Of a stretch of 64,000 nt of DNA, positions 34,951 to 39,518 are shown in pieces; the first letter of the stretch is position 1; the number at the start of each line of letters is the position of its first letter. The notes beneath the pieces were generated by a model. That model saw only the letters and a program-made list of their open reading frames with translations, had not been told where the DNA came from and did not search any database. Source of the DNA: Xanthobacteraceae bacterium (GTDB lineage Bacteria > Pseudomonadota > Alphaproteobacteria > Rhizobiales > Xanthobacteraceae); contig JANINJ010000026.1 in NCBI GenBank assembly GCA_024508855.1, forward strand, positions 124,001-188,000, written 5' to 3'. Position numbers and translations under genes: made by a program.

Positions 34951-35048
34951 CGGAGCTTCATCGCCAAGTTATTGCCGATGAATGAATCCGTTGCCGGTGT
35001 CACCGAGGTGGTGCGCCTGAATTCAATGCCGATGTGGGGTCCGGGGTC

Positions 35049-35696
35049 ATGGGGTCGGACGGATTTGATTCAAAACGACTGGGGGGACAGCTGGGTTCTA
35101 CGGGCAGGACCCGCTCCGAGGCGTTTGCCGCAACCGATACCAGGGCAGGTGTCGACATTGCCGGACTGGGCGATGGCACGAACCTCGTCGAGATCAGCGG
35201 CGCCATCAAATGGTTCGACGCTTCGAAGGGATACGGCTTCATCGTGCCGGATAACGGCGCGGCCGATGTCCTGCTGCACGTCACGGTACTGCGCCGCGAT
35301 GGTTACCAAACCGCTTACGAGGGCGCGCGCATCGTTTGCGAATGCGTACAGCGGGCCAAGGGCTATCAGGCATTCCGCGTGGTCTCGATGGACGAATCCA
35401 CCGCGATCCACCCCGCGCAGATGCTGCCGCCGCGCACCCATGTCAGCGTTACACCGACCAGTGGGCTCGAGCGCGCGCAGGTCAAGTGGTTCAACCGCTT
35501 GCGCGGCTTCGGCTTCCTGACCTGCGGCGAGGGGACACCGGACATTTTCGTGCACATGGAGACCCTGCGCCGCTTCGGCATGACCGAACTTCGCCCCGGT
35601 CAATATGTGCTCGTTCGCTTCGGGCCCGGCTCGAAGGGAATGATGGCCGCCGAAATCCAGCCGGAAAACGGCCCGCCGGGATTGCTCTCGCACTAG
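35049..35696 (+). CDS. cold-shock protein with two CSD domains
   Basis: A 215-residue protein with two cold-shock domains. The first, near residues 49-110, has IKWFDASKGYGFIVPD (RNP1 KGYGFI) and DVLLHV (RNP2). The second, near 146-205, has VKWFNRLRGFGFLTC and DIFVHM. The domains are joined by a linker with STAIHPAQMLPPRTHVSVTPTS. Such tandem CSDs are typical of rhizobial CspA-like RNA chaperones. The start is uncertain: ATG 35049 or GTG 35034. A plausible N-terminus in another frame begins at ATG 34979, see the finding on a possible frameshift. Confidence 0.88.
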   Translation: MGSDGFDSKRLGGQLGSTGRTRSEAFAATDTRAGVDIAGLGDGTNLVEISGAIKWFDASKGYGFIVPDNGAADVLLHVTVLRRDGYQTAYEGARIVCECVQRAKGYQAFRVVSMDESTAIHPAQMLPPRTHVSVTPTSGLERAQVKWFNRLRGFGFLTCGEGTPDIFVHMETLRRFGMTELRPGQYVLVRFGPGSKGMMAAEIQPENGPPGLLSH

Positions 35697-35805
35697 CTGG
35701 CCAGACCGCTCCAGCGGATTTTGAATTTCGTGCCGCTGGACGGTGCATCGTTGCCTTCTCCACCGGTATCGGCCATATCGTTGCGCCAAGAGACGGAGGC
35801 GCATC

Positions 35806-36648
35806 ATGCCCGCTCGCATCAACTGGACCTGCATGTCCCGACGAGGGTTTGTCGGCGGGCTCGCCCTTGGCCTCATGTCTGTCCGCGCGTTGGCGCAGGG
35901 TATGGGTGACCTTTCCCAGATCGTTGCCCGCGGCAAACTTCTGATCGCCATGCCGGACTTTGCGTCGCCGCCGTTTTTTCGGGCCGCTGGCGAAGCCGAA
36001 GGCGGACTGGATGTCGAAATGGGACGGCAGATTGCGGCCGCCATACAGGTGCCTGCGGTATTCGTCCGCTCGGGGAAGACGTTCGACGACGCGGTGGAGC
36101 AGGTCGCGAACGGGCAGGCGGATTTGGCGCTCTGCAAATTGAGTCGTACGCTCCGCCGCGGCCGTATCATTCGATATGCGCGTCCCTATGCCGAATTTCA
36201 TCATGGGCTGATCGCCAATCGGGTGCGTTTCGCACGCCTGGCGAACGGGCGTGAAGGCGCGGACGTGGTTCGGAATTTCCGTGGCGAACTCGGCGTGATC
36301 GCACAATCGGCTTTTGCGGAATTTGCCGCCACATCGTTTCCCGATGCACACGTTCGGGAATTCGAGAACTGGCCTTCGATGGTCGATGCGGTTCGCTCGG
36401 CGGCGATCGACATGGCCTATCGCGACGACTTCGAGATCAAGAAATTGCTTGTCGACGATCCCTCGCTGACCGTCGTCGCCCGTTCGATCACACTGACGGA
36501 CAGGACCGATACGCTGGCGATCGGCGTCCGGCCGGATGCCCCGCATCTGGCATCGTTTACGGACCTGTTCCTCGATCTGACACGACACGGAGCGGTAATG
36601 AAAACCGATCAGCTCCTTGCCCGCTATCGCGCGGATTCGGGTATCTGA
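35806..36648 (+). CDS. periplasmic family-3 solute-binding protein linked to a DAACS symporter
   Basis: A 280-residue exported binding protein of the amino-acid (SBP_bac_3) type. A Tat-like signal (CMSRRGFVGGLALGLMSVRALAQ) precedes LSQIVARGKLLIAM, and a GLDVEMGRQIAAAI segment matches the family's G-F/L-D-V-E/D-x-x-x-x-A core. GQADLALCKLSRTLRRGRIIRYARPY corresponds to the ligand-contacting region (usually TxxxR). GGAGG lies six bases before the ATG. Two bases separate its stop from the DAACS symporter start. No ABC permease or ATPase is nearby, so it probably serves that symporter or senses its substrate. The likely ligand is an acidic amino acid, inferred from the neighbours. Confidence 0.85.
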   Translation: MPARINWTCMSRRGFVGGLALGLMSVRALAQGMGDLSQIVARGKLLIAMPDFASPPFFRAAGEAEGGLDVEMGRQIAAAIQVPAVFVRSGKTFDDAVEQVANGQADLALCKLSRTLRRGRIIRYARPYAEFHHGLIANRVRFARLANGREGADVVRNFRGELGVIAQSAFAEFAATSFPDAHVREFENWPSMVDAVRSAAIDMAYRDDFEIKKLLVDDPSLTVVARSITLTDRTDTLAIGVRPDAPHLASFTDLFLDLTRHGAVMKTDQLLARYRADSGI

Positions 36649-36650
36649 GC

Positions 36651-38024
36651 ATGTCGGCATCGGTTGCGGTTCAGAAGGCAGATGTTCGGTTCGGCGCTGT
36701 CTTGAAGCGCATTCTGCGTTCGCCGGTTACGATCCTCCTTGTGATCGCGCTGGGCGTCGTCTGTGGGCTCTATGCCCCCGCGGTCGCACACGCCCTGGCG
36801 CCGGTCGCTTACGCCTATTTGAATCTTCTGAAGATGGTTGTTCTGCCGCTTCTGATTGCTTCGGTGATCTTTTCGATCTCCTTGATGATGCAGGATCCGC
36901 AGACGGTAAAATATCTGGGTCGCGTCGCCGTGGCCGTAGTGATTATATCGTTCGTCGCGGTTGTCGTGGCCGGCACGCTTTCGCTTATTCTGCAACCGGG
37001 CAACATCGTCGATCCCCAATCGCGCATCGAACTCGGCAAATTCATCAACTCACAGGGAACGGTCTCAACCGATCTGGAACTTGCCCTGACACCGCCGACC
37101 GATCTCGCGCCGCCCAAGGGATTGCTGTCGATCGTCCTGAACCTGATCCCGAATAACGTGTTTGGATCGCTCGCGAGCGGCAACACGATTCAAGTCCTGC
37201 TGTTTTGTTTGTTGTTCGGGCTGGCCATCGGCCGAGTACCGAAGCACACGACGACCAGCTTCGCCCAGGGGCTGGATGCCGTTTACAGAGCCTGCCTCAT
37301 TCTCACCGGTTGGTTTATCTGGGCGCTTCCCTTCGCCACCTTTATCCTGATTGCGGATCAGACGGCGTCCATCGGACCACAGCCGATCATGCTCATGGCC
37401 GGGTTTCTGCTTGTGATGGGCATCGCTGCCGCGATCTTCATGGTTGCCGCTTCGGTGATCGTTTCCCTGCAGTCCGGACGTCGTTTCTGGGCGACGGTCA
37501 AAGCATTTCAGCCCCTGGTCATGGTGGCGATCACAACCCGCTCATCGGTCGCCTCCATTCCGTGGATCGTCGAGTTGCTGGTGGAGAGGTTGAAGTTCGA
37601 CAAGGTGACGGTCGAACTGCTGGCCCCGCTGCAGATTGCCCTGCTGCGGACCGGGCCGACATTGCTTTACGTCTCCGGAACGATCTTCATCGCCCAGCTT
37701 TATGGCCGCTCGCTATCTGGCGGCGATCTCGCTTTGATTGGCGTCGCCTCAGCCTTGCTGGCGTTGACCACGGCCGGTATGGCCGGATTGGTCATCACGT
37801 CCCAGATATCCGTCCTGTGCGGTTACCTGAACTTGCCTTTCGAGGCGGCATTCGTGCTGTTCGTCGCAGTAGACACGGTTACGGACATGTTCATGACGCT
37901 TGCCACGGTCTCCATGGTCACAGCCAGCACCGCGACGATTGCGCCGCAGGGAGCCGAGGAGGCGATATCCCAAGAGGATGCGATCTCCGAAGAGTCATTG
38001 GTGGCTGTGGCTGGCCGGCCATGA
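36651..38024 (+). CDS. dicarboxylate/amino acid:cation symporter (DAACS, GltP/DctA family)
   Basis: A 457-residue secondary transporter of the SDF family. Landmarks are NLLKMVVLPLLIASVIFSI (TM2), LNLIPNNVFGSLASGNTIQVLLF, the hairpin-1 Ser-rich loop TRSSVASIPW, and hairpin-2/TM8 regions with FEAAFVLFVAVDTVTDMFMTLATVS (D-x-x-x-D substrate/Na site). About eight helices plus two reentrant loops fit the GltPh fold. Typical substrates are aspartate, glutamate and C4-dicarboxylates. It starts two bases after the binding-protein stop and overlaps the racemase start by four bases. The C-terminal tail is acidic. Elevator-type transport is known for the family; cooperation with a binding protein is not. 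Confidence 0.93.
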   Translation: MSASVAVQKADVRFGAVLKRILRSPVTILLVIALGVVCGLYAPAVAHALAPVAYAYLNLLKMVVLPLLIASVIFSISLMMQDPQTVKYLGRVAVAVVIISFVAVVVAGTLSLILQPGNIVDPQSRIELGKFINSQGTVSTDLELALTPPTDLAPPKGLLSIVLNLIPNNVFGSLASGNTIQVLLFCLLFGLAIGRVPKHTTTSFAQGLDAVYRACLILTGWFIWALPFATFILIADQTASIGPQPIMLMAGFLLVMGIAAAIFMVAASVIVSLQSGRRFWATVKAFQPLVMVAITTRSSVASIPWIVELLVERLKFDKVTVELLAPLQIALLRTGPTLLYVSGTIFIAQLYGRSLSGGDLALIGVASALLALTTAGMAGLVITSQISVLCGYLNLPFEAAFVLFVAVDTVTDMFMTLATVSMVTASTATIAPQGAEEAISQEDAISEESLVAVAGRP

Positions 38025-38773
38025 CAGGAAATTGCAAATTGCGCCTCGGCGTGATCGGCGGTCTCGGACCGCTCGCTTCCGCGGATTTTTATCGAAAGAT
38101 CACCTTACTGACGCCGGCAACGAAAGATCAGGATCACCTGTCGCTCGCATTGTTGAGCCTGCCCGATCTTCCCGACCGGTCGAGCGCGATACTCGATCAG
38201 CAGGACGCTCCGCTCGATTCCCTGCTTGAGGCCGTGGCGATGCTGAATGCGATGGGCGTGGAGTGCATCGCCATGCCCTGTAATACCGCGCACCATTGGT
38301 ACGGCACTCTGACTGCCGCCTCGAAAGCGGATATCCTTCATATCGTCGATAGTGTGCTTGCAGATTTGAAAGAGCGAGGTTGCGGCTTACGTGTTGCGTT
38401 GCTGGCGACCCAGGGGACGCTAGCCTCCGGCTTCTACCAGTCGCGGCTGATGGATTGCGGATATCGGATATGTCTTCCGAGGGGCGCTGCGTTCCAGTCT
38501 CGTGTGGACAGTGCCGTGGCGCTGGTGAAGGCAGGCGTTCTTGACAGGGCCTTGGAGGACTTGCGCCGCGCCGTGCAATATTGCGTGGAAGCCGATGCGG
38601 ACGTTGCGATTCTTGCTTGTACCGAATTGTCAGTTCTCAGCGATCAATTAACGGAATCGCCCATTGAGGTGGTGGACAGCAACGAGGCTTTGGCCAGATC
38701 GAGTCTGCGCAGATTGGGTATCGCCCCTTTCGGCGTTACGGCGGTGAGTTCGCCAACCGGTCTCACCGCTTGA
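38021..38773 (+). CDS. aspartate/glutamate racemase family protein
   Basis: A 250-residue PLP-independent racemase with the YgeA/RacD pattern: GVIGGLGPLASADFYRKI at the start, the first catalytic Cys in AMPCNTAHHW (C87) and the second in ILACTELSVL (C200). Both acid/base Cys are present, so racemase activity is likely, interconverting L- and D-Asp, D-Glu or a broader set. ATG 38021 overlaps the symporter stop, so expression is coupled. The context suggests processing of an imported D- or L-acidic amino acid. Dedicated murein glutamate racemase MurI is unlikely, since MurI has different flanking motifs. Confidence 0.9.
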   Translation: MTGNCKLRLGVIGGLGPLASADFYRKITLLTPATKDQDHLSLALLSLPDLPDRSSAILDQQDAPLDSLLEAVAMLNAMGVECIAMPCNTAHHWYGTLTAASKADILHIVDSVLADLKERGCGLRVALLATQGTLASGFYQSRLMDCGYRICLPRGAAFQSRVDSAVALVKAGVLDRALEDLRRAVQYCVEADADVAILACTELSVLSDQLTESPIEVVDSNEALARSSLRRLGIAPFGVTAVSSPTGLTA

Positions 38774-38887
38774 GACAACCCGCCGCCGATGTCGAGCTTT
38801 ACGACATCTTGGGTCTGGCGGTTTTGCTGTTTCGTCCTACCTTCTTGTTCGATAACAATTCCCAATCTCGTCAACGGGTCTGCTCTC

Positions 38888-39379
38888 ATGTCCATCCATC
38901 ATCGTTCTGGCTTGCGCGGTTGGTGCGCGGCGCTGTCGATCGCAATCCTGACGCTGTTGGTCTGCGGCGGGCTTACGGCCACCGACGTTCGGGCGGCCGA
39001 TCTCAAGACGCTCGAGATTGCCACCAAAACTGGCGTTCAGGTGTTTTCCATCGAGGTGGCAACCACCGAGGAGGAGAAGCGAACGGGCCTGATGTACCGC
39101 AAGGAACTGCCGGACGGACGCGGCATGCTGTTCGATTTCACCCCCGAACAGGAGGTGTCGATGTGGATGAAAAACACCTACATTCCGCTCGACATGATCT
39201 TCATCCGTGCCGATGGCCGCATCCTTCGGATTGCCGAGAATACCCAGCCTCTCTCGACCAGGATCATCCCGTCGCGGGGGCTTGCCAAAGGGGTGCTGGA
39301 GGTGATCGGCGGGACGGCGAAGAAATATGGCATCGCGCCCGGTGACCGGGTGGCTTATCCGCTCTTCAATGGGCAATGA
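38888..39379 (+). CDS. DUF192 family exported protein
   Basis: A 163-residue protein with a signal segment (WCAALSIAILTLLVCGGLTATDVRA) and a DUF192 domain: EVATTEEEKRTGLMYRKELPDGRGMLFDF, then SMWMKNTYIPLDMIFIRADGRI and a C-terminal GVLEVIGGTAKKYGIAPGDRV. Conserved Met, Trp and Asp residues line a small beta-barrel; the function is unknown. ATG 38888 is preferred over 38789, where the extra N-terminus is not signal-like. A hairpin and tRNA-Pro follow. Confidence 0.9.
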   Translation: MSIHHRSGLRGWCAALSIAILTLLVCGGLTATDVRAADLKTLEIATKTGVQVFSIEVATTEEEKRTGLMYRKELPDGRGMLFDFTPEQEVSMWMKNTYIPLDMIFIRADGRILRIAENTQPLSTRIIPSRGLAKGVLEVIGGTAKKYGIAPGDRVAYPLFNGQ

Positions 39380-39441: not shown

Positions 39442-39518
39442 CGGGGTATAGCGCAGCCTGGTAGCGCGGCAGTTTTGGGTACTGCAGGTCGTTGGTTCGA
39501 ATCCAGCTGCCCCGACCA
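39442..39518 (+). tRNA. tRNA-Pro (TGG)
   Basis: A 77-base tRNA with encoded CCA. The acceptor CGGGGTA pairs with TGCCCCG (A-T at the inner end), the anticodon stem GCAGT/ACTGC encloses TTTGGGT with anticodon TGG, and the T arm TGGTTCGAATCCA is complete. The first base pair C-G is typical of bacterial tRNA-Pro. No 3' duplication is seen. Confidence 0.96.

Follow-up and report, generated by a model that had tools for sequence, protein, structure and literature searches.

We examined a 64,000-nucleotide stretch of DNA (hereafter, the window) from a Xanthobacteraceae bacterium (contig JANINJ010000026.1), which carries a cassette of three genes on its plus strand. The first gene (35806-36648) encodes a 280-residue family-3 solute-binding protein (SBP; Pfam PF00497, SBP_bac_3, 38.6 bits), the second (36651-38024) a 457-residue membrane carrier of the SDF/DAACS family (PF00375, SDF, 189 bits over residues 27-430), which belongs to what we call the cassette lineage of SDF proteins, and the third (38021-38773) a 250-residue amino acid racemase of the type that is independent of pyridoxal phosphate (PF01177, Asp_Glu_race, 142.6 bits; NCBIfam NF052483). 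All three Pfam scores exceed their cut-offs. Two bases separate the SBP and SDF genes, and the SDF and racemase genes share four bases in an ATGA overlap. A preliminary description of this DNA, made from its letters alone, had drawn the same layout, and the two racemase cysteines to which it pointed, C87 and C200, are invariant in 44/44 aligned racemase rows (which include L003 and L004, both the window's own). Its remark that an ABC permease or ATPase is absent holds for the cassette and for seven neighbors that we tested (according to Pfam, Glyoxalase, SIR2, cold-shock, DUF192, HU-type, OpgC, and NDUS4); no search for ABC permeases was made in the remainder of the 64 kb or of the genome.

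The SBP contains the residue set for amino acid binding, S-x-T-x-x-R plus an aspartate in the second lobe. T115 and R118 are kept in 36/36 aligned SBPs and D207 in 35/36, and we take these residues to be the ones that bind the amino acid. A model of the SBP (pLDDT, the predicted local distance difference test score, of 91.4; all structure models described here are monomers) matched amino-acid SBPs as well as SBP-derived dehydratases. We considered an enzyme similar to cyclohexadienyl dehydratase, given that such enzymes and their ancestors are among these fold matches, but dismissed it because the amino-acid-binding residues are retained. Matches by sequence include BvgS and a glutamine ABC permease-SBP protein. 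An alternative start at position 35833 would give an N terminus of MSRRGF, with a signal, SRRGFV, that we take to be similar to a twin-arginine motif.

The racemase scores 205.2 bits against NF052483 (cut-off 190), the model of the cysteate racemase CuyB, whose defining traits are the racemisation of cysteate and a genetic link to the cysteate lyase CuyA. As 9/9 other cassette racemases tested also exceed this cut-off, all ten are candidate cysteate racemases.

The cassette carrier as a divergent SDF lineage

Among the three SDF proteins matched in the whole genome, the cassette carrier has the lowest Pfam score (188.9 bits vs 369.5 and 351.2). Its model (pLDDT 87.6) matches structures of GltPh, GltTk (including a structure with D-aspartate), EAAT1, and ASCT2, and each of the 50 PDB entries listed as matches is a Glt homologue, EAAT1, ASCT2, or an ancestral relative, with target TM-scores of 0.50-0.81. 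An ordinary DctA or GltP protein was considered and rejected, as the NCBIfam models of GltP and DctA reach only 81-86 bits compared to cut-offs of 513 to 638.

Based on an alignment to GltTk, we compared 36 cassette SDFs with 59 ordinary SDFs, using GltPh numbering and what we understand to be the roles of the GltPh residues at the Na+ sites and in contacts with the side chain and amino group of the substrate. In transmembrane helix 7 (TM7), the motif NMDGT is mostly replaced by [LIF]R[TVIA]GP in cassette SDFs. The window SDF has LRTGP, and a T at the position of N401. D312 is kept in 0/36 cassette SDFs compared to 58/59 ordinary SDFs, N310 in 5/36 compared to 59/59, and N401 in 6/36 compared to 59/59, and arginine occupies position 311 in 31/36 cassette SDFs. 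Because the TM7 NMDGT motif and the asparagine of TM8 are missing, we class the cassette SDF as a divergent SDF/DAACS lineage and not as a canonical Na+:dicarboxylate symporter. These replacements suggest that the usual Na+ chemistry has probably been lost from cassette SDFs.

D390 is retained in 34/36 and D394 in 31/36 cassette SDFs, and the TM8 aspartate kept in this lineage is presumably the GltPh residue that binds the amino group of the substrate. The position of R397, which we take to bind the side-chain carboxylate in carriers of acidic amino acids, is Arg in 59/59 ordinary SDFs compared to 21/36 cassette SDFs, and is Met in 10/36, including the SDF of the window. Because of this Met and the best racemase score being that for a cysteate racemase, aspartate and glutamate are only one candidate pair of substrates. 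We also considered that the cassette might belong to a catabolic operon from which the substrate could be read, but set this aside, since the tested neighbors vary between loci; weak hints include a DAO-family oxidoreductase near one cassette (L159) and, near another (L172), a regulator of the RpiR type together with a glutamine synthetase.

Recurrence of the binding protein-carrier pair

The preliminary description had named adjacency in this strain only as an outcome that would speak against it, and had proposed a search for conserved adjacency or fusion of SBP_bac_3 with SDF genes. We observed that the pairing recurs across phyla, thus disposing of a local accident, and that conserved adjacency and natural fusions both occur. 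In the family, the genome with the next best match to the SDF query (L005) has all three genes, with identities of 61% for the SBP, 64% for the SDF, and 50% for the racemase, and in L006 an SBP of 35% identity adjoins a very divergent SDF (23%). When 397 genomes of the order were searched with the SBP, an SDF gene lay directly downstream in 12/12 matches at E<=6e-30 (in L044 with broken frames), the next match being at 6e-12. A profile search at the phylum level, again in 397 genomes of which three were in common with the order set, identified an adjacent SDF at 8/8 matches at E<=1e-25, with the SDF first in L152. In Verrucomicrobiota, the phylum of an Opitutaceae locus, SBP matches were present in 3/145 genomes, with an SDF beside all 3, and in the phylum of a Chlorobium locus 2/148 genomes had matches, one of them the Chlorobium cassette itself.

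Using the SDF alignment to scan named genomes, we obtained 79 loci, a top slice derived from the best 80 among at least 552 relatives. According to their scores against an SDF profile, which was built from paired loci and contained no SBP sequence, these loci split into 49 of the cassette lineage (220 bits or more) and 30 ordinary ones (178 or less). An SBP is adjacent at 47/49 cassette-lineage loci, which are not independent of one another (15 are from Mesorhizobium and 23 are betaproteobacterial type VI secretion system (T6SS) loci), but at 0/30 ordinary loci. Similarly, a racemase is present at 39/49 compared to 0/30, and T6SS genes at 23/49 compared to 0/30. As a further control, an SBP lies beside 0/29 ordinary SDFs from the family and from the window's own genome. 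Adjacency of SBP and SDF is thus far beyond chance, the paired system is widespread yet sparse, and the partnership is real at the genomic level.

Pairwise distances among the SBPs and among the SDFs correlate (r=0.94 for 36 pairs, and 0.79 for the 16 divergent pairs), and 0/2000 permutations gave a correlation as high. In an 82-row tree of SDFs, for which 10 duplicate or broken loci were skipped, short rows were left out, and close relatives were thinned (from 144 rows to 82), the 30 ordinary rows are set apart by a branch with 100/100 support. A 71-row tree, from which the very long rows L143_n2 and L006_S1 (the latter SBP-paired) and 22 relatives were left out, and to which 11 of 15 fused rows (see below) and two paired Verrucomicrobiota rows were added, places 29 paired rows and 11 second SDFs together beyond a 100/100 branch (40 cassette-lineage rows), and the 11 fused rows beyond another. 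In this tree, the 20 ordinary rows do not all fall on the same side. Because uniting them was not rejected (p-AU 0.187), both one and two origins of the SBP partnership are possible; long branches limit this tree.

The two partners also occur in a single chain. One Verrucomicrobiota locus contains a 761-residue frame with SDF and SBP_bac_3 (L168:410-2692), in addition to a separate SBP-SDF pair. With this fusion as the query, matches at E<=1e-25 were present in 13/240 Verrucomicrobiota genomes (fusion loci L168 and L173-L190), and four of these matches lie within a single genome (G1074). Nearly the whole query is covered at 16/18 listed places; one match has a stop, and the copy of one genome is in two broken pieces. 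Both SDF and SBP_bac_3 exceed their Pfam cut-offs in 11/11 scanned proteins (L168 and ten further ones); the scan did not include L174, which has one stop, or L185/L188 of genome G1402, which have several. According to hydropathy, for which L180 and L181 were not used, the final SDF helix of the fusions is followed by another hydrophobic stretch, and therefore the fused SBP would be periplasmic.

A candidate binding-protein-dependent elevator transporter

We consider it likely that the product of the cassette is an elevator transporter of the DAACS (SDF) fold that depends on a binding protein, and that it would act on an amino acid with an altered cation coupling. This reading is based on the conserved pairing, the co-divergence of the partners, the fusions, the common branch of the cassette-lineage SDFs, the ligand residues kept in the SBP, and the residue changes in the carrier. 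The SBP would be exported to the periplasm, capture a zwitterionic amino acid there, and hand it to a dedicated SDF, which would carry the amino acid through the inner membrane. At loci with a racemase, this enzyme may then convert the D or L form that has entered the cytoplasm. Given that N310, D312, and N401 are mostly lost and that TM7 contains an arginine, the usual three-Na+ symport is probably not used, and coupling could instead involve H+, fewer Na+, or exchange. The preliminary description, which had proposed the delivery of an acidic amino acid to the DAACS carrier, is thus partly supported: the general idea of a binding-protein-dependent DAACS carrier receives strong genomic support from adjacency, co-divergence, and fusions, which does not extend to ligand delivery by the SBP or to an acidic ligand.

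More broadly, the balance of the evidence tips slightly toward a further class of SBP-dependent secondary transport on the DAACS/EAAT elevator fold. It would comprise two lineages: one, paired in operons, occurs in Alpha-, Beta-, and Gammaproteobacteria, Chlorobiota, and Verrucomicrobiota, whereas the other, in which SDF and SBP form a single chain, was found in Verrucomicrobiota. Among the operon-paired carriers, the TM7 arginine beside the lost Na+-site residues suggests that the SBP may replace Na+ in conferring affinity and direction, as Na+ does in GltPh.

Several observations weigh against such a transporter. Shared vertical descent alone would also yield the correlation between SBP and SDF distances. 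The fused SDFs occupy a long branch of their own (3.22) and, on inspection, are without the TM8 aspartates, and therefore support the principle rather than the exact lineage of the window; moreover, no relatives of the fusion were found in 200 Pseudomonadota genomes, in a search without its own positive control. The TM7 arginine is also present in 4/59 ordinary SDFs, which retain N310 and D312, and the position of GltPh D405 does not discriminate, as ordinary SDFs here mostly have N. No SBP was found at two loci with an SDF and a racemase, L111 (where the SDF was matched only from residue 215) and L112. The second match in the phylum of the Chlorobium locus (L158), examined as a candidate SDF-SBP fusion, turned out to be an ordinary ABC-type multi-SBP protein. 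Finally, the cassette possibly has another role in betaproteobacterial T6SS clusters.

Adjacency and fusion are also compatible with an SBP that acts in sensing or regulation. The SDF might act alone, and the SBP might serve in the periplasm as a sensor or buffer for the same ligand, reporting or modulating it, for instance to regulate the carrier or the betaproteobacterial T6SS. We regard this as unlikely, but as an alternative to be taken seriously: SBP-fold domains also act as sensors, with BvgS among our sequence matches, and two SBPs lie beside some SDFs (L108-L110, and L166, where one is below the Pfam cut-off). In the excerpted text of their report, the authors of work on the P. phymatum T6SS-b cluster also suggest that its symporters may sense dicarboxylates (PMC8356804). 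However, no sensor kinase is among the seven flanking proteins tested in the window, the SBP keeps its amino-acid-binding residues, the pairing persists in differing contexts, and in the fusions every carrier chain is joined to one SBP domain of its own.

It is very unlikely that the cassette serves export, whereby the racemase would make a D-amino acid, a carrier without normal Na+ sites would release it, and the SBP would retain or sense it in the periplasm, in betaproteobacteria in the service of the T6SS. The Na+-site changes, the T6SS genes at 23/49 loci, and a second cassette-lineage SDF in most of those loci are in line with this possibility, but the systems in which SBPs are known serve uptake, no racemase was found at 10/49 cassette loci (one of which, L087, ends at a contig edge), and no T6SS query matched in the window. 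Also very unlikely is an SBP that serves an ABC permease encoded elsewhere and is placed beside the SDF for co-regulation with respect to one substrate: although solved members of its family are mostly named as SBPs of ABC importers, an SDF lies beside every strong match to the SBP subfamily in the order and phylum searches, no ABC genes were found among the seven tested window neighbors, and the fusions join the SBP to an SDF.

To our knowledge, the DAACS members described so far work alone. The cassette carrier shares the Pfam SDF domain and the predicted fold with GltPh, GltTk, GltP, DctA, EAAT, and ASCT2, but differs in its partner SBP, the altered TM7 motif, and the mostly changed N401. 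Amino-acid ABC importers have an SBP of the same family and also exhibit the principle of a fused SBP, in SBP-permease fusions, unlike the cassette and the seven flanking proteins tested, which are without an ABC permease or ATPase. TRAP transporters, as outlined under TC 2.A.56, similarly combine an SBP with an elevator-type secondary carrier, but their DctP or TAXI SBPs work with DctQ and DctM, whereas here SBP_bac_3 accompanies a single SDF protein, and SBP_bac_3, SDF, and Asp_Glu_race are the only Pfam matches in the cassette. Tripartite tricarboxylate transporters, as outlined under TC 2.A.80, are likewise SBP-dependent secondary transporters, but consist of TctA and TctB with TctC SBPs, for which there is no Pfam match in the cassette. 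A 2018 review, in its excerpted text, counts three SBP-dependent transporter families, namely ABC, TRAP, and the tripartite tricarboxylate transporters (PMC5812351). If the SBP feeds the SDF, a fourth family would be added on the fold of the human glutamate transporters, and it would show an elevator carrier managing without canonical Na+ sites. The natural fusions make the hand-over directly testable. Among the open-licence PMC literature, no title or abstract opening found names an SBP-dependent DAACS transporter, which does not establish its absence from print.

Probable insertion site and genomic settings

The cassette lies between a cold-shock protein gene with two CSD stretches (35034-35696, plus strand) and a DUF192 gene (38888-39379, plus strand), which is followed by a tRNA-Pro(tgg) identified by ARAGORN (39442-39518, plus strand). 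DUF192 was matched in 6/8 genomes of the same genus, the window's own included. In 5/5 other same-genus loci, the cold-shock gene, DUF192, and tRNA-Pro are together without an SBP, SDF, or racemase, in support of the suggestion in the preliminary description that the cassette may be an insertion. By comparison with these empty sites, the inserted interval comprises approximately positions 35697-38887, with no strand assigned. The cassette thus looks inserted, having been gained at this site or else lost in the sampled sister genomes, and gain is favored because the cassette SDF is rare in the family, with two clear orthologues (the window's own included) among 296 genomes.

The 23 T6SS-linked cassette loci (L083-L107 except L098 and L099) are all betaproteobacterial. 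Apart from the short L087, their order is ClpV, VgrG, a MORN protein, the cassette, a homologue of an unassigned 159-residue protein, TssK, and TssL. Most of these cassettes have a second SDF after the racemase (for example, L083:7000-8439), which contains the TM7 arginine ([VL]RAGS), groups with the cassette lineage, and could form a mixed oligomer with the first SDF. The T6SS was rejected as the general setting of the cassette, as these loci are all betaproteobacterial and no T6SS query matched in the window.

The placement of the cassette in the T6SS-b cluster of P. phymatum is already in print (PMC8356804). In the excerpted text of that report, Bphy_5989-5992 have the order SBP-SDF-racemase-SDF, the label "amino acid ABC transporter" is given to the SBP, and the SDFs are read as dicarboxylate symporters; 15 further strains are said to have the cluster, with the racemase missing from one of them, and its expression was highest on citrate and low on glutamate. 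The same excerpts make no mention of an SBP-SDF partnership, of its spread outside T6SS loci, of fusions, or of the residue changes. For genes of T6SS clusters, annotations such as "amino acid ABC transporter" or "dicarboxylate symporter" would need to be corrected if our reading of the cassette as a binding-protein-dependent transporter is true.

Outside T6SS loci, cassettes are present in alphaproteobacteria and on a Gemmobacter plasmid. Forms with two SBPs beside the SDF occur in Opitutaceae (L108-L110), and the neighbors of one of these cassettes (L110:12-7817) are a methyltransferase, a beta-lactamase-family protein, and a phosphopantetheinyl transferase. In L166 (6763-9717), the SDF is flanked on both sides by SBP-like proteins, one of them being the protein below the Pfam cut-off, and L167 (3506-8043) contains two convergent SBP-SDF pairs in one locus. 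ABC-exporter-type genes lie upstream of the cassettes of Chlorobium (L099:32-3872) and of Thiocystis violacea (L112:1637-4192), the latter being the locus mentioned above in which no SBP was found. In the locus of the 761-residue fusion, a clostripain-family protease gene (L168:4950-7046) is located two genes upstream of the separate SBP-SDF pair.

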